Shown in pieces: positions 20,994-61,599 of a stretch of DNA of 64,000 nt. Position 1 is the first letter of the stretch; every line of letters starts with the position of its first letter. The notes beneath the pieces are model-generated. The model did no database searches, had not been told where the DNA came from, and saw only the letters and a program-made list of their open reading frames with translations. The position numbers were made by a program, and so were the translations under genes. This DNA is from Polytrichum commune. Its lineage: Eukaryota > Streptophyta > Polytrichopsida > Polytrichales > Polytrichaceae. The DNA is taken from positions 29,483,666 to 29,547,665 of the forward strand of contig OX485807.1 of assembly GCA_950295325.1 (NCBI GenBank), given 5' to 3'.

Positions 20994-21471
20994 AGTACTT
21001 TTGATAAGTGATTCGTGAGTTTCGGGCAGCTTGGATTTTTTTTTAAATAAATTAATACATAACCTTGAAGGACGGCCATTCCAATAACAGCAGCATGGTG
21101 ATGATGTCCTTTCTAGGAAACCGCAAAATTTTGTCAAAAGTTCATAACTTATGAGCAAGCCTGCATGCATGCATCACAAATGACACCATGTGTCCAAATG
21201 GCTGAGGAATTTGCATTGTCGACTCGTATGTGTGCTCAATTTGTCCCATGCATTTTGTTAAGTGCTTTGTTAGTGCTTTTTGTCTTTTGGAAATCTCCTT
21301 TACCCACAAACTCAAAATGCAAATCGATTGCTTGGAAATCCGGCCACTACACTAAACATTGTATTTACTTTTAGTGTACATGGTATTTTAAGTCATTGTG
21401 GTGGAGTGAAGAAACGCTGACCTTACTGGGATCAGCGTGATTGAAATGCCCGTCCGACCCATCCTTTGTAT

Positions 21472-21836
21472 TACCGTAACACCATAGCAGGTTCGTTCAT
21501 AAATAATTCCCAAAAAAAAAACGTAAAAAAACAGAAATTACAGGCAAAGAGAAACGAATAACTCTCAAACTATACTGTGATAAAAACGAAAAGACAGAAA
21601 ATCAGGATTAGGGTAATGACTTAGGTTAAAACAAGTTGGGCCGCCATAAATGGATGAAAAACACAATTAGGATGAAATTTCTGCACATCTTTCTCACCCT
21701 AAACACGAATGATTTTTAATCCAATAAATGAGAAGACGAATTTCAAAAAAAATAAAAATTGGAACGCGAACCTTATTTTTTCAAAAAAATTAAATATTAG
21801 TGCAGCAAGTGGCGAACCTGCTATGGTGTTACGGTA
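21472..21836. mobile_element. Miniature element with perfect 24-bp terminal inverted repeats
   Basis: The left end begins TACCGTAACACCATAGCAGG and the right end is its exact inverse over 24 bases. The 365-bp interior is A-rich and non-coding. No other copy was seen in the window. Ends in TA, so a TA target duplication is possible. Superfamily unassigned. Confidence 0.7.
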
Positions 21837-44373: not shown

Positions 44374-44446
44374 CGCCGGCCGTGGGATTCGAACCCACGA
44401 CCACGTGGTTAAAAGCCACGCGCTCTACCAACTGAGCTAGGCCGGC
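44374..44446 (-). tRNA. tRNA-Lys (anticodon UUU)
   Basis: The 73-base sequence folds as a full cloverleaf: acceptor GCCGGCC/GGCCGGC, D-arm GCTCAGTTGGTAGAGC, anticodon stem CGTGG/CCACG around loop CTTTTAA with anticodon TTT, and T-arm GTGGG-TTCGAAT-CCCAC. The discriminator is G. There is no intron and no encoded CCA. The internal A box (TAGCTCAGTTGG) and B box (GGTTCGAATCC) are intact, so it should be transcribed. It differs from the typical plant tRNA-Lys(UUU) mainly in compensated acceptor-stem bases. Confidence 0.97.
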
Positions 44447-45660: not shown

Positions 45661-46060
45661 TACACTAAATATGATATTTAGTGTTACCACTTGCACTTGT
45701 CTTACTCAATACTAATTGTAAACCCCAATATAGTGTCACCAACACTAAATGCTAACCCAACATTATGTGTCATTCCTTGTAAAACTTTGGGGGATTATAC
45801 ATTTACAGTGTTGCAATTACTGTCACTTACCGAGTGATTTTTCATCCAAAATTCAATCATCCATGACAATATTTCATCACAAGTTGCTGACAAGAGAAGG
45901 AAGAGTTTTGGCCAATAGATGAACTCATCCATCATCCATGAAGAAGAAGAACTCCGGTCTCCGGAAGAGGCCGGAGTGAATAAAGTGTATGTTCGTAGAA
46001 CATCCTAGGCCATGCCTTATGGCAGTGGCGTTAGATGTCATCATCCATGACAACATTGTT
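45661..46060. mobile_element. Family-A dispersed repeat, copy 2, with an insertion
   Basis: Begins TACACTAAATATGATATTTA and follows the 23450 copy block by block (ACCAACACTAAATGCTAACC, ATGTGTCATTCCTTGTAAA, CAATTACTGTCACTTACC). Near its right end it is interrupted at 45942-46037 by a small retroposed insertion, after which the family-A text resumes with CATGACAACATTG. Confidence 0.7.
45942..46037 (-). mobile_element. 96-bp retroposed copy of the TTC-tailed element
   Basis: Flanked by a 12-bp duplication, CATCATCCATGA (45930-45941 and 46038-46049). Read on the minus strand it carries CGAACATACACTTTATTCAC, a stem-loop, and ends in (TTC)n. These are the 3'-end features of the non-LTR element at 47811. 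The uninterrupted family-A copy at 23715 shows the empty site. It is either an extreme 5' truncation or a very short SINE. Confidence 0.75.
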
Positions 46061-46966: not shown

Positions 46967-47335
46967 GGGCCGGTTTACACTACGGTGGAGAAGTCCACCG
47001 GTCATGAAAAAAAGGGCGTTTCTCAATTGTGATTGGTTGAAAATGCAACTCTTGACCGGTGGGTGTTTAGGTGAAGAAAACAATGGTGGTGAACTTTTCT
47101 CATGGATGATAAAATGACATGGCCGCCTACATGGCGGCACTTTTTGGAGTTGGGCTACTCCGGAGGAGGAGTTTCTTGTCCGGCCTCAAGAGGCCGGAGA
47201 AGCCCAACTCAATAAAAATATTTTATTGCCTTTAATTCTTCTCCGGCACATCCACCATTTGCCCCATATAACCATGTCTTGGCCAAGCATTCTTGACCGA
47301 CCGGAGGCCTTCTCCACCGTAGTGTAAACCGGCCC
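46967..47335. mobile_element. Harbinger/Tourist-type miniature element
   Basis: Terminal inverted repeats of 27 bp match perfectly, beginning GGGCCGGTTTACACTACGG. TAA flanks both sides (46964-46966 and 47336-47338), the 3-bp TWA-type target duplication of PIF/Harbinger. The 369-bp body has no transposase. A second internal palindrome, CCGGCCTC-AAGAGGCCGG, lies near 47180. Confidence 0.88.
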
Positions 47336-47810: not shown

Positions 47811-49414
47811 CCCCCCCGGATACTCCTGTCAACCCTAACAAAAAGTGGTCCAAATTAACTTACCCCGATACCCCCATACTCAATGTATCACCTATACCTC
47901 AACTACCGGACTACCAAACTAACTTACCATTGAAATACCATCCACAATTTAGTTATTACACCAATGGCTCATTCAAAGAACCCAAACTAATCTCTACCGG
48001 AGTATGGAGGAAAGAAATGGCAGGATATGGTATCTATAGCCCTAAAGGACTAAGTATAGCCGAAAGGCTATATGGACACCATAATATCCTCAGAGCAGAA
48101 ATGATGGCTATACATAAAACATTGTGAATTATCAACGACCAATATCCAAATGAGCCCGCATATATATTCACCGATAGCCTCAATGTCCTATACCTACTAA
48201 ACACACAAATCAAACACCCCACACTACACAATAGTCACCCAGACCAAGTCACACTTGCCTCCATGGTAAATTTACTCCAAAAACGCTCTCAACCAACTAC
48301 ATTATACAAAGTTAGAGCACATGTCAACATAGACGGCAACGAACAAGCAGATAAATTAGCAAAAGAAGGACTGGACCTTACCCATAGAAATGCCATACAC
48401 CCACACGAACACGCTCATGCCACACCTTACTACTATCAAAAAGACAAATGGCCCTCCATGATAGACATGCCAGACAAGGGCCCAATCATATTCCTAGAAA
48501 AACAAATCAAAAAATATGATAGAACAAACAACTTAGAAAACATGGCCGCACAAGCCCCTAATATTTGGAAATGGATAGGCAATGAACACATTGACAAGGA
48601 ACTTTCTAATGAATTCTAGAATAACCCTACTATTACGGACAAACAGAAGTCATGTCTTATCAAATTTCGTACAGGAACTTACATGGGCCAAGCCAGAAAA
48701 CAACTCTTCTTTGGTAGACAAAGATTCCCCACCATCACCTGTCCCATCTGTAACTCATACGAACCTGACACATGGCTACATGTACTACTCACATGTAGGC
48801 AACAACATATTCACTCTCTACACGTAAAAAGACATAACAAAGCAGTATGGGAAATAAGGAAATTACTAATCTCATCTGAAAAATCCCGATGCTACACCCT
48901 TATGAACGCTGGCACCTTTAATGACAACCCCCAAGAAAACACCGTCCCTAACTGGTTATTACCCTGCACATGTGGAACCCAAAGATGTCACTACAACTCC
49001 CGTTTTAAACCTGACATTCTTTGCGTTAAAGGACTACCATATCAAAATACACCCCCCACAAATGTAGACCAAACAATTACCATACAATTCATTGAATTCA
49101 CATACTGTAATGATAGATTTTCACCAGCAACTCTAGAAGCCAAAACTAACAAATACCAACCACTAATAGAAAGCATTGCTGCCCTAGGTTGGAAAACCGA
49201 CCCGCTTATTGTTATTACAGCAGGCGCCAGAGCCGCAACACACATCCCATCAATGAAACTATTGGAAGACAAATTTAAAATACCTATGTCATCCATCCGA
49301 AATACCTTCAAAAACATTAATACCATTGCGATACAATACGCCATGTCCATCTTGCTCCACAAAAGAAGACTTGAAAATCACCAACCTCTACCTCAAATAC
49401 AAGACCCCCCCTAA
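47811..49414 (+). pseudogene. Retrotransposon polyprotein C-terminus: RNase H, CCHC, RLE-like endonuclease
   Basis: One reading frame runs through the whole region, broken only by TGA at 48125-48127 and TAG at 48617-48619. RNase H: YTNGS (47957-47971), E in ILRAEMMAI, D in FTDSLNVL and D in GNEQADKLAKEG. The first catalytic Asp is Asn here (codon 47963-47965). A CX2CX9HX4C motif (CPIC...HVLLTC, from 48740) follows. Then FKPDILCVKG (PD at 49010-49015), IQFIEFTY (E at 49094-49096) and AKTNKYQPL resemble the PD-x(n)-D/E...K-x2-KY pattern of restriction-like endonucleases in R2-type elements. PD-to-E spacing (26 residues) is longer than usual. Extra cysteines (PCTCGTQRCH) precede it. The copy is inactive. 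The RNase H and CCHC calls are firm; the endonuclease call is inference. Confidence 0.75.
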
Positions 49415-49673
49415 ACTCCCTAGATCAAACTAAACAAAACAAACCCTATATTAAACCATCCCTTGGGTATAGTCTCCCTTTGTGTCATTAACCAATATTG
49501 GTTATTGGCTCTTATTTGTTACTGGTTACTTGTGACTATAGTGTCTACTCTCGAAAGGGGGAAGTAGTTCCTCACTTCTACTCTTATGTCCCGTGGACAT
49601 AGGTTTAGGGGTGGAACGAACAGACACTTCATTCACGTCGGTCCCCCTGGGGATCGAAGTTTCTTCTCTTCTC
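47811..49673 (+). mobile_element. 5'-truncated non-LTR retrotransposon with 14-bp target duplication
   Basis: The insert is bounded by an exact 14-bp repeat, TGGGGAATGGTCCA (47797-47810 and 49674-49687), which shows target-primed insertion. It lacks the 5' part: no apurinic endonuclease or reverse transcriptase remains. It keeps the C-terminal half of the polyprotein (to 49414) and about 260 bp of 3' UTR. The 3' UTR ends with a conserved box, a hairpin (49638-49657) and a TTC-rich tail (TTTCTTCTCTTCTC). Base usage is A/C-rich and G-poor, unlike the host genes. Two short relatives lie at 45942 and 61218. Confidence 0.88.
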
Positions 49674-50517
49674 TGGGGAATGGTCCAGTGACATCCCCAA
49701 ACATAGGAAGATTACCATGTGCATGAACAAGGATGCAAGTTACAATATTGCTATGTAGGGTCTCCTTCAATTCATTTAAGTGTGGGTTTACATGAGGGTT
49801 TAGGTGTCCCTCTTAAGAGAACTTACTTTGGAACTCAATATTGGACTCAATTTTTGGTTCCTCAAACTAGCACGAGTATTTTATTCTATTTTGAGTGGGG
49901 AAAGTGATGCCACATTAGCACCACTTTATTTTCTTCATTCCTTGAACGCATATCCTAATGTAAACTCCTTGGGTTCAAAATTTTGATGTTGACCAATGGG
50001 ATCACTCAGTTTTGAAGTTCCTTTAGTCTTGGTCCCTAGTTATAAACCCACCCTAAGAATACTAATGTTTCTAATAGAGTTACTTGTAAAATCCCTCAAA
50101 TGGGGACAAAACTTTGGGTTTTGATCCTTCTTTGAGAAATTTTTCTATTAAGAGCAATTGTTAGCTCGTCGTGTATCAAAGTCAATATTTGAAAATCAAG
50201 TGGAAACTTTTGGGACCCCCTCTTTGCACCTCTCAACCTTTGAAAAAACTTGAAGATCTAAAATACGGTATGCGCATGGGACACACTATCCTAAATCTTA
50301 GATTAGCCTAAGTCAAACTAGAAGTATGGCTTACAGGGTTTTAAACAACCTGACACCACTTCTTTGTGTATGATAATTGAAACATTAAAAAAATTGAGTG
50401 CCTTTGTATTAATTCTTGCAAACTCGGGGGTTTGGGACTAAACCCATGGTTTCATCAGCTTTACTTTACAAACAACTCCTAATGTGCATTTATTTAATTT
50501 CCATGTATGATTCTACC

Positions 50518-61085: not shown

Positions 61086-61217
61086 ATTGACTTGGGACGA
61101 TGGCCATTCATCGCAAACTGATCTAACTTAGCTTAGATTCGCTGTGAAGGACAAGACTTATTGTAGTACGAAGGTTCTTTAATTATTTTGAGTTTGTTGA
61201 TGTACTCTATTTCTCTC

Positions 61218-61284
61218 TTGGATCGAACAAACACTTAATTCACGTCGGTCTCCTCCGGAGACCGAAGTTTTTCTTCTTCTTCTT
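61218..61284 (+). mobile_element. 67-bp retroposed copy of the TTC-tailed element
   Basis: Flanked by an exact 11-bp duplication, CTATTTCTCTC (61207-61217 and 61285-61295). The insert carries CGAACAAACACTTAATTCAC, a 9-bp perfect stem-loop (61245-61265) and a (TTC)n tail. It matches the 3' end of the element at 47811 for its whole length. Confidence 0.75.
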
Positions 61285-61599
61285 CTATTTCTCTCCCTAA
61301 AGCACACTAAATTAACATCACTCATGGGGTGATAGTACGTTATGCTCAAGTCGTGCACTTGATAACTCCTAAGTGTACCACAAGTACTCTTAACTTATAC
61401 CACTTAAAAATTCAGGTCCAAGACCATTGGAGGTTCAATACCGTAGTAGTTTAACACAACGATTGCTTAAAGAGAACACTACATGAATTGCACTTTGTTA
61501 CCTTGGGTTCTCTTCCACTAACATGAATTTCAAATCTATCAATATGGATTGAAAATCTAGTATAGTGGTAGATCACATAACCATCTAGTGGAAGAGGAC

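Follow-up and report, generated by a model that had tools for sequence, protein, structure and literature searches.

The window, that is, the whole 64,000-nucleotide stretch of Polytrichum commune DNA analysed here, holds an insert that is very probably a dead remnant, from the 3' part, of an autonomous non-LTR retrotransposon that has the two-nuclease layout of the Dualen/RandI type, in this case in a bryophyte. In its longer relatives in the host genome an ORF1 precedes an ORF2 that encodes, in order, a leader, a 2A-like peptide, an apurinic-type endonuclease (APE), a reverse transcriptase (RT), a PCIF1-like domain, an RNase H domain, zinc motifs and a putative restriction-like endonuclease (RLE); all of these domains stand in order in intact frames in four loci (L009, L017, L018 and L025). 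A preliminary description, made from the letters of the window alone, had proposed a little-known plant lineage of non-LTR elements, and this reading is supported by the land-plant host and by the pairing of RNase H with an RLE-like C-terminus. A plastid contig of the same assembly (408 Mb, seven large contigs) encodes psaB; among the best 60 of its 83 PDB matches the top three are 8htu, 6l35 and 7ksq (1698-1702 bits), followed by one at 1665 and the others at 1628 or below. Two publications (PMC11629750, PMC10005731) identify 7KSQ and 8HTU as photosystem I of Physcomitrium patens, and this sequence evidence thus points to a bryophyte, most probably a moss.

The window copy and its relatives

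Because a 14-bp direct repeat abuts both ends of the insert, its limits can be placed exactly at 47811-49673. The features of this copy, and of two smaller insertions in the window, are as follows.

47811-49673, + strand: non-LTR retrotransposon copy, very probably of the two-nuclease kind, 5'-truncated and inactivated; 1,863 bp, bounded by target-site duplications (TSDs), with related copies in the host genome
47797-47810, no strand: left TSD copy, 14 bp, TGGGGAATGGTCCA, direct repeat
49674-49687, no strand: right TSD copy, 14 bp, direct repeat
47813-49414, + strand: ORF2, 3' part, beginning past the PCIF1-like domain and running to the stop, with two internal stops
47951-48372, + strand: RNase H domain, placed by alignment and, on its second part, by Pfam PF00075; outer limits approximate; one internal stop
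48740-48796, + strand: CX2CX9HX4C zinc-finger motif, from the alignment of copies; its H..L..C...RHNK part is also in R2Bm
48964-48990, + strand: Cys cluster, the second of the copy, C-x-C...C-x-C, immediately ahead of the PD motif; its last Cys is Tyr in the window copy
49004-49380, + strand: putative RLE, limits approximate, from invariant residues, dN/dS and the strand/helix order in a low-confidence model
49538-49663, + strand: conserved 3'-terminal RNA fold, with outer stem, two hairpins, CATTCAC and terminal hairpin
49664-49673, + strand: short-repeat 3' tail, TTCTCTTCTC, adjoining the terminal hairpin
45942-46038, - strand: second insertion, of the same superfamily, a 97-bp 3' tail only, with a 12-bp TSD, TCATGGATGATG (46039-46050 / 45930-45941); RNA model E=4.1e-9
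61218-61283, + strand: third insertion, a 66-bp 3' tail only, with a 12-bp TSD, TCTATTTCTCTC (61206-61217 / 61284-61295); RNA model E=7e-8

The preliminary description had seen at 47811-49673 one frame with RNase H blocks, a CX2CX9HX4C motif and FKPDIL...IEFTY...KTNKY. This frame is real, as borne out by a PF00075 match at 48128-48616 (E=3e-6; 27.9 bits, cut-off 25.8) and by the invariant residues and low dN/dS given below. The RLE motifs of the window copy are FKPDIL from 49004 (PD at 49010-49015), IEFTY from 49091 (E at 49094-49096) and KTNKY at 49142-49156. The copy itself is dead, since the frame contains two internal stops, TGA at 48125-48127 and TAG at 48617-48619, and the first catalytic Asp of its RNase H has changed to Asn (codon 47963-47965, YTNGS); in the alignment, YTDGS is kept at this site in L009, L013, L015 and L017-L020.

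Two other features of the window lie on the 5' side of the insert: a tRNA-Lys (TTT) gene at 44374-44446 (- strand), and, at 46967-47335, an element of 369 bp that has TAA on both sides and perfect terminal inverted repeats of 27 bp, GGGCCGGTTTACACTACGGTGGAGAAG, and which we take to resemble a Harbinger-type MITE.

The RLE of the window has at least 145 scored matches in the host genome, 80-100% identical (5,360 candidates at first look), and a second lineage (lineage B), which by domain is 42-59% identical to L009, has at least 150. The search for longer copies with their RT, which the preliminary description had proposed, was successful, and the copies recovered carry APE, RT, PCIF1-like, RNase H and RLE regions. 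Open ORF2 frames extend over 2,625 codons in L009, L010 and L011, 2,919 in L017, 2,924 in L018 and 2,422 in L025, the last being the intact member of lineage B beside the broken L026 and L027. The longer copies closest to the window subfamily, L032 and L033 (RLE 93.5% identical to that of the window), contain 2A, APE, RT, PCIF1-like domain, RNase H and RLE in order, with frameshifts or stops; L012, of the window subfamily itself, begins at the RT and has neither APE nor 2A.

The family has moved recently, since L009 and L011 share 99.55% identity across 11,869 bp. The L011 insertion is complete, at 11,965 bp, and is flanked by a 12-bp TSD. Among the loci tested, plausible TSDs were found only for L011, for the window copy (L001) and, weakly (9 bp), for L008; none was found for the near-complete L009 and L010, nor for most others. 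The insertions seen sit in unlike sequences, with no evidence of rDNA targeting. No relatives outside the host were found in the phage, viral-contig and genome-contig collections searched, and the plasmid collection gave just one weak bacterial RT (28.8% identity).

Several observations concern the 5' side and the subfamilies. The complete copies L009 and L011 have on their 5' side an 18/54-bp tandem repeat, GGCAGCTTCCCTCAATTC (L029 1587-1769, L031 1621-1803). The ORF1 C-termini of L018 (3-776) and L009 (8502-9869, - strand) are strongly different, although their ORF2 share about 90% identity in most domains, a contrast that points to an exchange of ORF1; by eye, a short QCLN...FG...V.F.PH stretch is common to both. 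A mosaic origin from two subfamilies is suggested for L019 by its dS against L009, which is 0.15-0.22 in RNase H and RLE and 0.54-0.67 in the upstream parts. We also considered joining of ORF1 to ORF2 by frameshifting, and dropped this idea because, by frame positions, L009 would need a -1 shift and L018 a +1 shift.

The nuclease regions and the domains between them

An APE upstream of the RT was found in the longer copies, including L032 and L033 of the window subfamily. Its Pfam scores exceed the cut-off in L017 (25.5 bits vs 24.5) and in L025 (32.2 bits vs 27.4), and L009 has no APE match in Pfam at E<=10. The APE profile matches exonuclease III with E=1.9e-4, the alignment covering the first 42 positions only, and in hhalign it matches the APEs of the host's own L1 elements with a probability of 98.1 (E=6.8e-14, 238 columns); as a control, the RLE profile against the same L1 APE set gave a probability of 0.2. 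The preliminary description had likened the CCHC finger followed by PD-D/E...KxxKY to the R2-type layout, in which RNase H is lacking. The layout is not R2 plus RNase H, because the longer copies carry the APE upstream of the RT. The Dualen/RandI elements, which the preliminary description had named as carriers of two endonucleases, have the two-nuclease layout that is predicted for these copies.

The C-terminal region comprises 230 conserved residues with PD, E and KxxKY. In an alignment that spans two lineages with nine rows (identity to its first row, 46-95%), the residues C9, C12, H22, C27, P99, D100, E127, T129, K143, K146 and Y147 are invariant in every row. Pfam gave no match to the RLE in the window copy, L009, L017 or L025. 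Against PDB at E<=10, the RLE profile found only R2Bm (two chains, E=1.3), in an alignment that spans H..L..C...RHNK.V, in the finger and directly after it, and lies outside the PD...K part; an earlier RLE alignment had given an unrelated synthase as its sole PDB match (E=0.61). The preliminary description had looked to structure prediction for a PD-(D/E)XK fold, and this was not obtained: AlphaFold2 models of the two ORF2 halves, APE with RT and PCIF1-like with RNase H and RLE, had mean pLDDT values of 38.6 and 38.2. In the weak model of the latter half, the order is strand (PDILC), strand (IEFTY), helix (KNNKY), strand and helices, at pLDDT of about 50-60, and with low confidence this is the order that a PD-(D/E)XK core would show. 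In the R2 nuclease the catalytic Lys is placed in a helix. The assignment as an RLE is a putative one, supported by the invariant motif residues, the predicted secondary-structure order, the R2-like finger and purifying selection.

Could this region be a former nuclease, now used for DNA binding only, so that the APE does all of the cutting? The fold and activity of the RLE are read from sequence, and the R2 RLE was matched only outside its catalytic part, as such a history would allow. On the other hand, the putative catalytic residues are invariant in 9/9 rows, whereas the NPPF motif of the neighbouring PCIF1-like domain has been lost in 8/8 families, and we consider loss of the nuclease function quite unlikely.

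Selection was estimated as dN/dS by the Nei-Gojobori method; dS exceeds 1 in most pairs, and those values are thus uncertain, the sound pair being L009-L018 (dS 0.44-0.70). Across pairs, dN/dS lies at 0.07-0.19 in the APE (6 pairs), 0.05-0.08 in the RT (5 pairs), 0.07-0.18 in the PCIF1-like domain (7 pairs), 0.05-0.17 in RNase H (8 pairs) and 0.07-0.12 in the RLE region (7 of 8 pairs, namely those in which dS was estimable). For L009-L018 the values are 0.07, 0.07, 0.11, 0.06 and 0.09 in the same order. Judged by these ratios, both nuclease domains are under purifying selection. The RNase H domain is also plain in Pfam (PF00075), with E=7.3e-13 in L009, 1.5e-14 in L017 and 2e-16 in L025.

The RTs of the family form a clade outside the L1 elements of the host. 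In an unrooted tree of 13 rows, made of two-nuclease, host L1 and R2 rows only, each kind forms a group of its own: the seven two-nuclease rows with support of 100/100, the three rows of host L1 with 100/100 and those of R2, also three, with 90/91. The preliminary description had named placement outside L1/RTE as support for its claim, and as evidence against it full-length copies with a normal APE, a place inside L1 or I and no predicted PD-(D/E)XK fold; of these, the APE is present, and the tree excludes a place inside L1. When the L009 sequence alone served as query, three R2 proteins scored 106-109 bits, R2Bm 70-74, 8c8j 61 and human L1 58-59. With the RT profile, the R2 proteins scored 133.6, 114.6 and 114.1 bits, L1 ORF2p 88-89 and R2Bm 80 and 76, that is, the profile ranks R2Bm below L1.

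These scores bear on two other origins. The first is a plant L1 (or I-group) element of the ordinary kind, equipped with APE, RT and RNase H, the C-terminus of which would be the usual zinc region. The presence of APE and RNase H, as plant L1 can have, agrees with this, as does the higher profile score of L1 ORF2p (88-89 bits) than of R2Bm (80). However, two other R2 proteins score best with the profile (133.6 and 114.6 bits), the RT clade stands apart from the host L1 rows at 100/100 in the tree of two-nuclease, host L1 and R2 rows, and the host L1 element L028 ends in Pfam zf-RVT, in contrast to the 230 conserved residues of this family with their dN/dS of 0.07-0.12; we regard an ordinary L1 as highly improbable. 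The second is an RLE element of the R2 type in which RNase H and APE were acquired independently of Dualen. The RHNK finger common with R2Bm and the single-sequence RT scores, nearest to R2 proteins (109 bits, as against 59 for L1), would fit such an origin, which we nevertheless think unlikely, the combination of APE with RNase H and RLE being the Dualen layout in the consulted portions of two publications (PMC4640811, PMC3636483). We retain the Dualen/RandI-type layout as our reading of the family.

Between RT and RNase H lies the PCIF1-like domain. Pfam PF12237 is above its cut-off in L009 (E=3.5e-10), in L017 (E=2.9e-12) and at 150 scored places in the host genome; in L025 the match is under the cut-off (26.7 bits vs 31.1). 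The only PDB entries matched by the domain profile at E<=1 are two of PCIF1, with E=0.0078 (6irx, zebrafish-type) and 0.33. NPPF is the catalytic motif of the PCIF1 methyltransferase, and in all eight families it is replaced by AHPH, AHPP or AFPT, even though purifying selection acts on the domain. The domain is most likely a non-catalytic module that would bind the RNA cap or RNA.

The 2A-like peptide and the 3' end

Searched with a DNA pattern for GDIxxNPGPM, the host genome gave 268 exact matches, and with the reversed pattern as control it gave none. Among the 100 matches listed, the residue at the Glu position is Glu in 81, His in 13, Lys in 5 and Arg in 1; the peptide has been kept while its codons drifted, since the 60 DNA strings of these 100 matches give only 12 peptides. 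The core (D/G/C/N)(V/I)ExNPGP is exact in five of the eight families (L009, L017, L019, L025 and L027), the Glu being replaced in L018, L020 and L026. It is preceded by a Leu-rich hexapeptide, whose last two residues are (S/C)G in six of the eight. By its core and its upstream context, both as in functional 2A peptides, this is a predicted 2A (StopGo)-like peptide. Of 19 APE matches picked near a 2A, nine are on the plus strand, and eight of these begin 666-675 bp past the 2A; of the ten on the minus strand, nine lie 1121-1186 bp from it, measured to the far end. The leader before the 2A is weakly constrained (pN/pS 0.74 and 0.70), and the length of its open frame may owe much to the A+C-rich strand.

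All of the 3' ends examined in lineages A and B have an outer stem round two hairpins, ATTCA, a terminal hairpin and short repeats, and the tails after the terminal hairpin are (TTCTC)n, (TATC)n, (CTT)n or (TTTTC)n-like. In nine lineage-A ends, tested against a structure that was drawn from one of the nine, standard pairs make up 94.6% of pair cells, as against 31-48% when the structure is slid. The covariation score is 0.210 vs 0.156 in shuffles, with 0/500 shuffles as high; two of the five measures, double-change pairs (113/500 shuffles as high) and pair types (493/500), were not above shuffles. An RNA model of lineage A finds L027 (E=3.3e-5) and L025 (E=4.1e-4) of lineage B, and gave no match in lineage-B L026 or in four L1-type loci. 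Its matches from E=0.018 up look like noise, one of them being on the opposite strand. The lineage-A tail pattern occurs 286 times in the host genome, with a control of 0.

It should be mentioned that the window has a further weak match to the 3' fold at 21411-21485 (- strand, E=0.031), with a TGATC...GATCA-like hairpin and CAATCACGCTGATC, perhaps the tail of a more distant relative. In the 3' UTRs of L009, L010, L011, L017, L018 and L019, about 70-250 bases past the ORF2 stop, there is a block with a GGGTTCGATTTC-like B-box on the opposite strand that by eye resembles an antisense tRNA-derived SINE; the window subfamily, L020 and L025-L027 showed no such block. In six loci, this block included, ARAGORN detected no tRNA, and in five loci Rfam gave nothing at the gathering score.

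Proposed mechanism and known systems

Target-primed reverse transcription is established for R2 and L1. In the family described here, ribosomes would pass the leader, skip one bond at the 2A and release a replicase starting with the Pro of NPGP, which may then bind the 3' fold of its own RNA. One nuclease would nick the target, the RT would start copying the RNA at this nick, the short 3' repeat lying beside the priming site, and RNase H would remove the RNA. The other nuclease, or the same one, would cut the second strand 12-14 bp away and so give rise to the TSDs, and an early stop of copying would leave 5'-truncated pieces such as the three in the window. The 12-14-bp duplications imply staggered cuts on the two strands, which the two nucleases could share or one could make.

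It is possible, though rather doubtful as a whole, that the family represents an ancient and separate clade of land-plant LINEs with two nucleases, in which both APE and RLE would be needed, each for one target strand, the replicase would be freed by the 2A, and a former cap methyltransferase, now a cap-binding module, would tie the replicase to its own capped RNA and favour full-length insertion. The family is material for asking which nuclease makes which cut.

The PCIF1-like domain resembles the cap-specific adenosine N6-methyltransferase PCIF1/CAPAM in its PF12237 and 6irx profile matches, and differs from it in the loss of NPPF and in its place between RT and RNase H. R2 elements (R2Bm, R2Tg) are alike in RT similarity, in the CCHC-RHNK finger, in the C-terminal RLE motif and, presumably, in copying primed from a nicked target. 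We know of no APE or RNase H in R2 elements, unlike the present family, which has both.

The plant L1 and RTE LINEs share with the family 5' truncation, TSDs and an APE that precedes the RT, and some of them also RNase H. The family is unlike them in that its RT falls outside the host L1 clade, a putative RLE, a 2A-like peptide and a PCIF1-like domain are present, and its 3' end is structured and carries short repeats, not poly(A). L1 and RTE are the only LINEs given for plants in the part consulted of a 2022 review (PMC9033089), and no two-nuclease LINE of land plants is named in the literature searched, a scope that excludes Repbase and subscription papers.

With regard to the 2A-like peptide, non-LTR elements bearing such peptides are reportedly APE-only, to judge by the title of Odon 2013. 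The 2A-bearing elements of trypanosomes and animals, as presented in the consulted part of PMC4981915, are alike in having D(V/I)ExNPGP in an ORF, and this family differs from them in its predicted two nucleases and land-plant host. Its Leu-rich hexapeptide, mostly ending in (S/C)G, resembles two motif classes in the accessible portion of PMC12846837, where Leu-rich 2A upstream motifs end in (A/S/C)G. The family would offer a natural 2A peptide in plants, and that 2026 survey, in the same portion, found no natural 2A use by plant viruses.

The Dualen/RandI group of green algae was reportedly described by Kojima and Fujiwara in 2005. Dualen carries a cysteine protease, and is not known to have a 2A-like peptide or a PCIF1-like domain. 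Pfam gave no cysteine protease in L009 (E<=10) or in L017 and L025 (E<=0.01), a search that distant ones could escape. Dualen/RandI is, in the consulted portions of PMC4640811 and PMC3636483, the one published kind in which APE and RLE occur together, along with RT and RNase H. In a 2013 table (PMC3747384, consulted in part) RandI is placed in green algae only, and 8/8 of these families end in short 3' repeats instead of poly(A). Set beside these published descriptions, the predicted two-nuclease layout of our family is that of Dualen/RandI, with APE and RLE in one element, RT, RNase H and a short-repeat 3' end, a likeness by layout; the family differs in its land-plant host. As an abundant and recently active land-plant element, with both predicted nucleases under selection, it would extend the only known kind that links the RLE-only and the APE-only groups.
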